From positions 1 to 32,243 of the IMG/VR virus record IMGVR_UViG_3300032156_000052: a stretch of 32,243 nt of DNA; one strand, 5' to 3'. A model generated the notes under the pieces. It was not told the origin of the DNA. It searched no databases and saw only the letters and a list, made by a program, of their open reading frames with translations. Positions within the stretch are counted from its first letter, which is position 1. Each line of letters begins with the position of its first letter. This document shows, one piece after another, positions 3,864 to 31,775 of the stretch. Origin of the DNA: a virus. The position numbers were made by a program, and so were the translations under genes.

Positions 3864-7665
<3,802 letters not shown>

Positions 7666-19841: not shown

Positions 19842-19867
19842 AATGCTCCCTGCTATTTTAACCAGTC

Positions 19868-19915
19868 CTCAGGGGCTGGGAACCCCGCCGGGCCCATGCC
19901 CCTGAGACCGGTCTC
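19868..19915 (-). terminator. GC-rich hairpin plus palindrome downstream of capsid gene
   Basis: CTCAGGGGC at 19868-19876 pairs with GCCCCTGAG at 19898-19906, extended inward by GGG/CCC around one bulged A. A 12-base palindrome GAGACCGGTCTC (19904-19915) overlaps it. The hairpin lies between the capsid stop and the gp36-like gene. No U-run follows, so it may attenuate or process the message rather than end it fully; that would favour more capsid than downstream protein. Confidence 0.5.
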
Positions 19916-19936
19916 ACACAACACAACACACGAAGA

Positions 19937-28726: not shown

Positions 28727-29182
28727 CTAATTCTTCTGCGCTCGCTCTTTTAACTGTTTGTCGTACTGTGTATACATGGCCTTCAGGTACATCTTCACAA
28801 ACGTCATCTTCGGATCCGTACTCAAGGAAATCTTGGTTCCACATGCTTGACAAAATATCCAGGCGTCTTCCGCCCATTGTGTACCCTCGGGACGCATTGA
28901 CCACACGGTCCCCATGTGCAACGGCTTGGCGCATATATCACACCTCGGATTCTCTATGTTATTTCCCAACTCCGATTGTACAAGATACATCCTGTCCCGG
29001 AATAAGAAGCTGTTGGGTATGGGCATCTTTTCCCCATTTGTAAACTTAGCGACATGGCACAGGCCCGGAACATCGTGCACGTTCCTCAGCCAGTTGGCGT
29101 CGATGTGCCCAAGCAGGTGCCGGCTATTTTTGAACCCAAGCACATGGGCAAGTCGGGCAAGGATCTCACCGTTGATCGGCAT
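28727..29182 (-). CDS. Zinc-ribbon protein (151 aa)
   Basis: Cys81-x2-Cys84 and Cys111-x2-Cys114 make a likely zinc ribbon (CDICAKPLHMG and FCQACG). The first about 75 residues are helical (ILARLAHVLGFKNSRHLLGH) and the C-terminus is basic. GAGG four bases before the ATG supports the start, which overlaps the upstream gene by 17 bases. It may bind nucleic acid or a protein partner; no family is certain. Confidence 0.65.
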   Translation of the reverse strand: MPINGEILARLAHVLGFKNSRHLLGHIDANWLRNVHDVPGLCHVAKFTNGEKMPIPNSFLFRDRMYLVQSELGNNIENPRCDICAKPLHMGTVWSMRPEGTQWAEDAWIFCQACGTKISLSTDPKMTFVKMYLKAMYTQYDKQLKERAQKN

Positions 29183-29444
29183 AACGCCTCAAGAGTTTAT
29201 TAATCTCGCTTTGGAACTGTCTGGTGGGAATCTCCATGTTGCGCAGGGTTTCGTACGCCGCGTCAAACTCTAACCTGTGCTTAGAGTCGATCATCAAGTG
29301 GTTGAGGGATGACTCAGGGAAAGTGATCTCCTCCCTCTGGGTCTCATGCCAGCCCGTAGAGCTCTTGTAGCGCTGCCCAGGCACACGTCTGGTACGGGTC
29401 ACGGGCGGGGGTTGCTTGCCCTGGGCAAGTTCGTAGCGGGTCAT
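29166..29444 (-). CDS. Unknown basic 92-aa protein with structured leader
   Basis: A GGGAG site five bases before the ATG is part of a long stem (see the RNA element 29449-29520). The N-terminus is Pro/Arg-rich and the C-terminal half is helical (EFDAAYETLRNMEIPTRQFQ). No family is recognised. It is the first gene after the RNA element and is followed by the zinc-ribbon gene. Confidence 0.55.
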   Translation of the reverse strand: MTRYELAQGKQPPPVTRTRRVPGQRYKSSTGWHETQREEITFPESSLNHLMIDSKHRLEFDAAYETLRNMEIPTRQFQSEINKLLRRYADQR

Positions 29445-29448
29445 TGGG

Positions 29449-29520
29449 TCTCCCGGGTGCCCAAGCCCTCAGTCTGGGGCACACGCCCCGGGAGAGGTAC
29501 GTGTGTATGTCCCCAGACTG
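29449..29520 (-). ncRNA. Candidate cis-regulatory RNA: pseudoknot burying a ribosome site
   Basis: Two perfect complementary pairs interlock. TCTCCCGGG (29449-29457) pairs with CCCGGGAGA (29487-29495), and CAGTCTGGGG (29470-29479) pairs with CCCCAGACTG (29511-29520). This is the topology of an H-type pseudoknot. GTGCCC (29457-29462) can also pair with GGGCAC (29477-29482), competing with three bases of the second stem. On the minus-strand RNA the first stem includes GGGAG, the ribosome site of the 92-aa gene at 29444. This could be a riboswitch, protein-bound or temperature-responsive control site. Seen by eye only; no known class is matched. Confidence 0.55.
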
Positions 29521-29548
29521 GGACCGGGCTGTGGTTAATAATCTACCA

Positions 29549-29782
29549 TTACGCGGCTGCCAGGGCCAGACGCATCGTTGATGAGCTATCGGAGCCTCTC
29601 CCAGACCGCACAGGAGCCCCGCCACGGCCTGTCAAACCGAATACCTCCCCAGAGCCCATCTCCCGGGGCTCCCCGGCCGTCTGGAAGCGGGCCTGGCACA
29701 CTGGGCAAGTTCCGGCAATGGCTTCGCTGGACCAGTGCCGTAGGAACAAGTCTGCTTGACATCCGGTACATTTGATAATCAT
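29549..29782 (-). CDS. Small zinc-ribbon protein (77 aa)
   Basis: AAAGGAGG lies five bases before the ATG at 29782, favouring it over the ATG six codons earlier. The start MIIKCTGCQADLFLRHWSSE and later CPVCQARF place two CxxC pairs about 20 residues apart, as in small zinc ribbons (Com-like or rubredoxin-like knuckles). The tail is Gly/Ser/Arg-rich. It is the first gene of the minus-strand early operon. Mu-type phages carry a small zinc protein, Com, but identity with it is not shown. Confidence 0.7.
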   Translation of the reverse strand: MIIKCTGCQADLFLRHWSSEAIAGTCPVCQARFQTAGEPREMGSGEVFGLTGRGGAPVRSGRGSDSSSTMRLALAAA

Positions 29783-30011
29783 TTGGGCCTCCTTTATCAT
29801 AGCGTAGGTATCAATAGATTATTAAACGGACAGGTAAGTCTAATGATTGCAGGTATTTAAGAGAAAATGGGATAGTATAATGGTTTAATGGTTAGGGCAA
29901 TAAAGTCAATGTGGCCTTGGAAATTTTCGAGGGCCTTGAAAAAAGATCCCACAGGATTCCTCGGCATATCTCTGGATCAGCAAGCAATCCTGACCGGCAA
30001 AAACTGTGATG

Positions 30012-30027: not shown

Positions 30028-30173
30028 AGGGCCCGAAAGTTATTGTGACAAAAATAACGAGCATTTTCTCTTTCCGGTCCCCATTAGGCCTTTTTTATCA
30101 TATTTTATCTTTTTATGATACTTATACTCTTTTATTATCTTATTAGATAGATAGATAGTGATTGAAGAAAATA

Positions 30174-30345
30174 CCTGTTGGTATTGTTGTTTAATAATAA
30201 AATCAATGACTTATGACTTGTTGGTTACTTGTTGGTTACTTGTTGGTGAACCTGTGTGGATCCTGTTGGTTTATGGAGAGCCTCCAAGTCACTTCCAAGT
30301 CACTTCCGACAGGTTTTCTCTACCAACAGGATCTTTACCAACAGG
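30174..30345. repeat. Iteron-like array of CYTGTTGGT (candidate replication origin)
   Basis: The 9-base motif C(C/T)TGTTGGT occurs seven times: direct at 30174, 30217, 30228, 30239 and 30262, and inverted (ACCAACAGG) at 30322 and 30337. The three at 30217-30247 are 11-bp tandem units; the two inverted ones lie in 15-bp tandem copies. Two further 11-bp tandem copies of TCCAAGTCACT lie at 30283-30304. It adjoins an AT-rich stretch and lies upstream of the primase-like gene, which fits an origin bound by an initiator, or a cluster of operators. Confidence 0.6.
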
Positions 30346-30386
30346 ATCTTTACTACCAATCTATGGTGTAGGATCTCACGCCAAGG

Positions 30387-30406
30387 GTGTTCTCAACTGA
30401 GAACAC
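30387..30406. promoter_or_regulatory. Operator-like inverted repeat upstream of replication genes
   Basis: GTGTTCTCA-AC-TGAGAACAC is a perfect 9-bp inverted repeat. It sits 26 bases before the -35 of the rightward promoter and would suit a dimeric regulator. Confidence 0.5.
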
Positions 30407-30432
30407 TTAATGAATTAAATAAAGATAGAGTA

Positions 30433-30460
30433 TTGACATAGCTCTGGGATGATATATTTT
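30433..30460 (+). promoter_or_regulatory. Rightward promoter for the replication genes
   Basis: A perfect TTGACA (30433-30438) is followed 16 bases later by TATTTT (30455-30460); TATATT at 30453 gives 14. The start would lie about 40 bases before the ATG at 30508. Confidence 0.45.
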
Positions 30461-30507
30461 CTCTATGCAGTTTAATTATTAACTCCCCAAAAGAAAGGAT
30501 AAAGGTT

Positions 30508-30807
30508 ATGAAAACTGTATGTGTTCCGATGCCGGACACTGCCGGGATGAGAAAGATTATGCAGAAAGTTGCAGGTCTACGTGATTATCGCAAGGTGCCT
30601 GTATACTCTATATATGCCTATGCTCTTGTCAAATTGGCGGCTGAGATGGCCGTTATGGATAAGAAAGAATTGCAGGCCGAAGCTGACGAGGCTGTGAAAC
30701 TTTTTTATGAATTTGCTGGAGATCAATTCCGCAAGGAGCTCGAGCAAGACGATTTGACGCCAACAAACAGTTCCAAGGTTGAACCGGAACCGGTTAAAGC
30801 CCTGTGA
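30508..30807 (+). CDS. Unknown helical 99-aa early protein
   Basis: AAAGGA eight bases before the ATG supports the start. The protein begins MKTVCVPMPDTAGMRKIMQK; residues about 30-80 are strongly helical (YSIYAYALVKLAAEMAVMDK), and the end is acidic and disordered. Its stop overlaps the GTG start of the primase-like gene (GTGA), so the two are coupled. No family is recognised; a replication accessory role is inferred. Confidence 0.65.
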   Translation: MKTVCVPMPDTAGMRKIMQKVAGLRDYRKVPVYSIYAYALVKLAAEMAVMDKKELQAEADEAVKLFYEFAGDQFRKELEQDDLTPTNSSKVEPEPVKAL

Positions 30808-31775
30808 CCGAGGTAATTTCGGGACTTTTTGACCCTAATACCTTAACTGAGATAGCTTTATCGCCGAGGCTCGTAAGGGTCTCTCCACCCGCGATCGCTT
30901 TTTGTCGGCCGCTTTCGTGGGGAAAAATATATGACTTTTTTTCCCACCGGGGCGATTACCGATCCAACAATAAGGATAATCAGGGCTTCAAAACGGGTTT
31001 ATTTCGGCATGTCTCCGGTCCTGAATTATATAAGTATGCTGAGGAATCCGAGGCCAAACGTAAGGCCGGCAAAAAGTTTCCCATGAAGCATCTGAAAACT
31101 CCTGAGCTCATGAAATCATGGAGTGATCAGATGACCACATTTACAAATACAAGTGACTTCTTGACATTGCGTAGAAACACGCACGTCTTGGAAAGTTCTT
31201 CCCTTTTTGTCGACATAGATAATGCCTCGAAGCTCACGCCAGAAATGATTCTCCCCATATTCCGATATATGAACGTCTCATATATTGCATACAGCACACA
31301 TTCATCGAAGCCGGAAAAACCTCGATGGAGATTGATTTTGCCGATGTGTAAATCCGTTGAGTTTGGATCTATATGGAAAGCGTGTAATGATTTACTTTTC
31401 CAACTTATAGATCCAGGTCTATATTTTTCAAAGCTTGGTCACATAGATCTCACCTGCATTGACCCATCTCGTTTTTTCTATCTCCCAAACTTTCCAATCG
31501 ATGGCGCTCCATTACATATAGGGGCGTGGTCACCGGCCATCGCATATAGGCCGTTCCTTGAACTTCATCTTGTCAACCAAGCGCTCGACCCAGAAAAAAT
31601 GTCCGCGCTTTGCAAGTACAAGGTGAGCAGTGCTTATTCGGTATCGCAATATCGAAAAAGTATGAGGAGGAACGACAATGCCCTTACCGATATCTCCAAA
31701 TCAGAGAATCTCTGCTCTGCTGACTATAATTCAGGCCCTGGGACAGGACAATCTCAAGTTTTGTCAATCAGTTAA
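30804..31775 (+). CDS. Primase-polymerase (AEP)-like replication protein (323 aa)
   Basis: GTG start overlapping the upstream stop. The pattern fits an archaeo-eukaryotic primase-type catalytic core: LFVDIDN with Asp137-x-Asp139 (motif I), YSTHSSKPEKPRWRLILP with Ser164-x-His166 (motif II), and CIDPSRFFYLP (Asp220, motif III region). Such enzymes start DNA synthesis in phages and plasmids and are often fused to a helicase. Here the catalytic part stands alone, and the last 37 residues (after about 285) overlap the next gene in another frame and look unlike a folded domain. Confidence 0.7.
   Translation: MTEVISGLFDPNTLTEIALSPRLVRVSPPAIAFCRPLSWGKIYDFFSHRGDYRSNNKDNQGFKTGLFRHVSGPELYKYAEESEAKRKAGKKFPMKHLKTPELMKSWSDQMTTFTNTSDFLTLRRNTHVLESSSLFVDIDNASKLTPEMILPIFRYMNVSYIAYSTHSSKPEKPRWRLILPMCKSVEFGSIWKACNDLLFQLIDPGLYFSKLGHIDLTCIDPSRFFYLPNFPIDGAPLHIGAWSPAIAYRPFLELHLVNQALDPEKMSALCKYKVSSAYSVSQYRKSMRRNDNALTDISKSENLCSADYNSGPGTGQSQVLSIS

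Follow-up and report, generated by a model that had tools for sequence, protein, structure and literature searches.

The leader described here belongs to a minus-strand operon of small genes in IMG/VR virus record IMGVR_UViG_3300032156_000052, the whole 32,243 bases of which constitute the window. Judged from its gene content, including a Mu-type portal (PF06074), a terminase, a tail sheath and a virion morphogenesis protein, the window represents an uncultured Mu-like phage. The operon runs from 29782 and encodes, in order, a 77-aa zinc ribbon, a 92-aa protein, a 151-aa protein and a winged-helix protein (Table 1). The zinc-ribbon ORF also has a longer 83-aa reading that begins at 29800. Between the 77/83-aa ORF and the 92-aa ORF lies an intergenic gap of 104 nt (29445-29548), the length given in the preliminary description, with minus-strand orientation throughout. 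In its own frame, the 92-aa ORF has a gene-like codon-use score. Its product has no family match above cut-off, and structure prediction followed by a PDB fold search returned no structure match.

Table 1. Coordinates of the operon, leader and related features
Feature	Position	Strand	Remarks
Zinc-ribbon gene, 77 aa	29549..29782	-	ATG at 29782 after AAAGGAGG; C-terminal half disordered
92-aa gene	29166..29444	-	Downstream of hairpin; best-scoring frame by codon use
Rod hairpin	29459..29529	-	25 nested pairs plus short loop pairs; MFE fold in every context tried
Rod outer helix, 9 bp	29521-29529/29459-29468	-	Two 1-nt bulges, two G-U pairs
Rod middle helix, 10 bp	29511-29520/29470-29479	-	
Rod bulge, 5 nt	29506-29510	-	
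Rod inner helix, 6 bp	29500-29505/29480-29485	-	CACACG/CGUGUG
Apical loop, 14 nt	29486..29499	-	UACCUCUCCCGGGG; bears anti-SD 9-mer UCUCCCGGG (29487-29495), perfect RBS complement
SD-containing element	29449..29457	-	CCCGGGAGA with GGGAG Shine-Dalgarno; 3' arm of possible loop-SD pseudoknot
Near-match to Mu Com SELEX motif	29446..29462	-	GGGCACCCGGGAGACCC; one mismatch; on RBS
Alternative helix enclosing SD and AUG	29422..29463	-	UGGGCA (29458-29463)/UGCCCA (29422-29427); competes with outermost part of rod
Third exact CCCGGGAGA in window	29659..29667	-	Inside zinc-ribbon gene; with one further C, 10-nt complement of hairpin loop
Post-capsid hairpins in relatives	L002:3250-3321, L004:4102-4223, L006:3608-3700, L011:1513-1604		

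Elsewhere in the window, two long collagen-like G-x-T-G repeat proteins are encoded on the minus strand (801-2033 and 3864-7106). The region between the divergent operons (30158-30507) carries direct repeats (ACTTGTTGGTT three times, TCCAAGTCACT twice and TCTYTACCAACAGGA 2.5 times) together with 12-bp inverted repeats and lies near a primase-like gene (30804-31775); it is possibly a replication origin or control region.

Two perfect pairings had been proposed for the leader, one of 9 bp (29449-29457 with 29487-29495) and one of 10 bp (29470-29479 with 29511-29520). Both are present and interlocked, and the GGGAG of the 92-aa gene (29450-29454, 5 nt from its ATG) falls, as proposed, within the first of them, where it is part of the 3' arm. 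Folding of the leader reveals, in addition, an inner and an outer helix that are absent from the preliminary description. These merge the second stem into one rod (29459-29529), which changes the interpretation of the leader. In four sequence contexts, pairing probabilities are about 0.99-1.0 for the inner helix and for the inner portion of the outer one. The leader has a minimum free energy (MFE) of -52.9, with z of -4.4 to -4.7 versus shuffles, and ranks with the most stable 105-nt stretches in the window. The intercistronic hairpin is real. The single most stable 105-nt stretch (29589-29693, minus strand) lies in the GC-rich 3' half of the zinc-ribbon gene, and the surrounding 29560-29710, taken in one piece, folds only slightly better than its own shuffles (z -1.2).

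The opposite strand of the leader reaches only -47.3 (z -1.8), versus -52.9 (z -4.7) on the transcribed strand. The transcribed strand folds better because of its G-U pairs, and this strand preference favors an RNA element over a DNA one. The comparison bears on the proposal that the long inverted repeat between these genes is a DNA-level dyad or a transcription terminator. A DNA dyad would have no need of the G-U pairs that make one strand more stable. The sequence following the stem, ACCCGGGAG, lacks a U-run (a T-run in the DNA), so it is not an intrinsic terminator, and a terminator scan gave no match. We regard a dyad or terminator as very improbable.

The pairings within the leader are themselves non-random. 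An interlocked pair of helices, each of at least 8 bp and together within 100 nt, occurs only here in the 32-kb window. Across 3000 dinucleotide shuffles of the leader, an interlocked 8/8 arrangement arises once and a 9/9 arrangement never. When the hairpin is held fixed, 9 consecutive bases of its 14-nt loop are complementary to the initiation region (p~0.002), and the upstream complement to the ribosome-binding site (RBS) of the 92-aa gene, at 9 nt, is the longest among 33 phage genes (next best, 7). These results also weigh on a neutral explanation, in which a GC-rich, self-complementary stretch (57-72% GC versus 50% for the window) folds by chance. The local GC content is indeed high, and two copies of the palindrome CCCGGG pair automatically; however, shuffles that preserve composition fail to reproduce either the folding or the pairings of the leader, making a chance origin distinctly unlikely.

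The leader has two interlocked helices, one of which contains the Shine-Dalgarno (SD) sequence, as expected of an SD-sequestering pseudoknot. If this pseudoknot acted as a switch, the apical loop would pair with CCCGGGAGA and shut off the 92-aa gene whenever a protein, ribosome or helicase opened the outer helix; closing of the outer helix, or an alternative helix over the SD and AUG, would provide the other states. Consistent with such a switch are the 9 + 10 bp interlocked arrangement, found in 0 of 3000 shuffles, and the length and significance of the match between loop and RBS. The energetics favor the rod. The 12-nt linker of the pseudoknot (29458-29469) is the segment occupied by the 9-bp outer helix of the rod. 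Without the outer helix, the pseudoknot amounts to -33.7 plus about -22 kcal/mol for the 9-bp stem (the S2 stacking gained once the linker is free), or -55.7 kcal/mol before any closing penalty, versus -56.9 kcal/mol for the nested ensemble. By these energy-model estimates the rod is favored by about 1 kcal/mol at zero penalty, and the usual closing penalties of 7-15 kcal/mol leave the pseudoknot 8-16 kcal/mol worse. The order of transcription acts in the same direction, as the outer helix closes first: every length of nascent RNA from 29470 on prolongs the same rod, which is finished before the SD is transcribed. The pseudoknot, though possible, is thus predicted to be a minority state, and we consider a loop-SD switch unlikely.

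The same calculations bear on the suggestion that interlocked stems hide the RBS. Opening the RBS of the 92-aa gene costs 4.9 kcal/mol in the nested ensemble, which is the median value (rank 18 of 33 phage genes). With average accessibility, and with the nested rod preferred even at zero penalty, a concealed RBS is not the predicted ground state, and on the energy-model estimate the pseudoknot is not the stable fold of this leader. A thermosensor is likewise at odds with the predicted SD exposure, which in the nested model is flat between 20 and 65 C (0.37-0.42). As for a riboswitch, no Rfam family matches at gathering score, and relaxed thresholds yield only noise matches. What remains of the preliminary description is a structured leader beside the RBS of the 92-aa gene, which is real, although the pseudoknot is not its favored state.

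The idea of competing pairings fares better in part, as alternative helices do exist, but not as a simple on/off pair of states. Depending on context, the helix that would enclose both SD and AUG is 1.0-4.5 kcal/mol less favorable than the ensemble. From its complementarity, the copy of CCCGGGAGA at 29659-29667 could also pair with the hairpin loop.

Phage leaders of this general kind have been described. Sequestered initiation sites are known from T4 genes e, soc, 49 and I-TevI, and the leader of T4 gene 32 forms a pseudoknot (PMC3014915). The earlier statement that phages rarely show such leaders is therefore too strong for structured leaders generally. The gene 32 pseudoknot, however, is possibly the only viral one that serves translational autoregulation, according to the same review (PMC3014915). 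Located 67 nt before the start codon, it nucleates gp32 on an RBS that is A+U-rich (PMC3014915). The leader described here resembles it, and the rpsO operator, in that a pseudoknot may form before a phage RBS. It differs in that the stem would take in the SD itself and in that a nested rod outcompetes the pseudoknot. With T4 e, soc, 49 and I-TevI it shares an RNA helix near a phage initiation site; in those genes the SD or AUG is within the helix (PMC3014915), whereas in the fold favored here the SD is of average accessibility.

The gene upstream of the leader suggests a different form of control. In phage Mu, Com acts on the mom initiation region. The gene order here is that of com-mom, with a small zinc ribbon bearing a disordered tail encoded immediately before the gene that would be regulated. 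The 77-aa protein has a CxxC-x17-CxxC ribbon followed by a disordered tail, which is the Com-like layout; in a single-sequence model, block pLDDT is 70-86 in the first 40 residues and about 40 beyond. Both this layout and the Com SELEX motif, GAGNNCC(N)2-3GAGNNCC, have been described (PMC6483171). Allowing at most one mismatch, the motif occurs four times in the window; two of these copies are in this operon, one of the two exactly on the RBS. As in com-mom, the initiation region carries a GA-containing CC(N)2-3GAG motif. By composition, a match on the RBS is expected at a frequency of 1-2%, and 0.3% of shuffles contain at least two copies, values that apply to a motif selected for Mu Com and chosen after the sequence was seen.

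On these grounds the 77-aa ribbon might bind RNA at or near the next RBS and alter the initiation region of a target other than mom. Comparison of the proteins argues against this. The Pfam model PF10122 (Zn_ribbon_Com) matches Mu Com (36.8 bits) and misses the 77-aa protein, BLASTP of the 77-aa protein against Mu Com finds nothing, and other zinc-ribbon Pfam models give matches below cut-off only. A motif selected for Mu Com need not suit so distant a ribbon. No mom-like modification gene is recognized downstream of the ribbon, the position being held by the 92-aa protein. Further differences from com-mom are that the genes do not overlap and that the RBS is preceded by a strong rod hairpin of its own; in Mu, an 81-nt stretch surrounding the mom start (L003:1020-1100) folds no more stably than its shuffles do. 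The leader and zinc-ribbon operon are not classed as a Com system. By analogy they may work in a Com-like manner, although control of this type is improbable. Highly improbable is a combined, three-state leader, in which loop-SD pairing would occur only with the outer helix open and would be gated by the upstream Com-like ribbon.

Comparison with relatives speaks to the hairpin as a class of element. Searches of viral contigs for relatives of the 77-, 92- and 151-aa proteins, tblastn searches of phages with the 77- and 92-aa proteins, a DNA search of phages and plasmids with the leader, and a search of viral contigs for the exact leader pattern all returned none. A portal search in viral contigs and terminase and capsid profile searches in genome contigs also found no relatives. 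Capsid profiles did recover ten viral contigs, with capsids of the relatives 35-67% identical, one of which (L005) has terminase and portal homologues besides. Because no convincing relative of either the 77- or the 92-aa protein is encoded on any of the ten, no covariance model of the leader could be built.

Only one other gap in the phage has a comparable rod; it lies behind the major capsid gene (19842-19936, minus strand, z -4.9). Among the relatives, L002, L004, L006/L007 and L011 have strong hairpins, unrelated in sequence, in the equivalent gap, and L005 has a weaker one; the stretches folded for L008 and L010 contain none. These hairpins mostly lack a U-run, and their position is conserved across diverged relatives while their sequence is not. 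They are not homologous to the leader rod. Their recurrence suggests that intercistronic rods are a habit of the lineage. The hairpin of L004 matches Rfam RF02996, the int-alpA RNA, at L004:4159-4224 (46.9 bits, above gathering). It adjoins an HNH endonuclease-like ORF, an unusual location for int-alpA RNA.

A further precedent is found in T7-type early mRNA, in which intercistronic RNase III hairpins, long, imperfect and with an asymmetric bulge, lie between the genes of an operon. The leader rod is likewise a long, imperfect intercistronic hairpin with an asymmetric bulge, although it has no sequence relationship to the T7-type hairpins.

Taken together, these observations lead us to favor, tentatively and at somewhat less than an even chance, an intercistronic RNA hairpin of the minus-strand operon that separates expression of the zinc-ribbon gene from that of the genes behind it. 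The transcript would fold co-transcriptionally into the nested rod, complete before the SD region is made, and the rod would then decouple the zinc-ribbon gene from the genes that follow. Several routes could produce this effect: processing of the mRNA, with the rod as an RNase III-type substrate; protection of the upstream 3' end; or slowing of transcription or of ribosome passage. The 92-aa gene would then be translated at an average level from its own site. In functional terms the rod probably tunes the operon, and the most economical reading is that of a processing, stability or stoichiometry element. This hairpin reading leaves unexplained the 9-nt complementarity of loop and RBS (p~0.002), unless that arose by chance in a GC-rich stretch, and the match is compatible with a conditional OFF state for translation.

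If the rod is merely an intercistronic stabilizing or processing hairpin, it is an ordinary element, though one of a kind that the lineage seems to reuse. If it is regulatory, the small-gene operon of this uncultured Mu-like phage lineage would gain a point of control at the RNA level, and it would become possible to test whether genes other than mom are under the control of Com-type zinc ribbons. A three-state leader, if true, would constitute a Com-type translational switch for such a gene.
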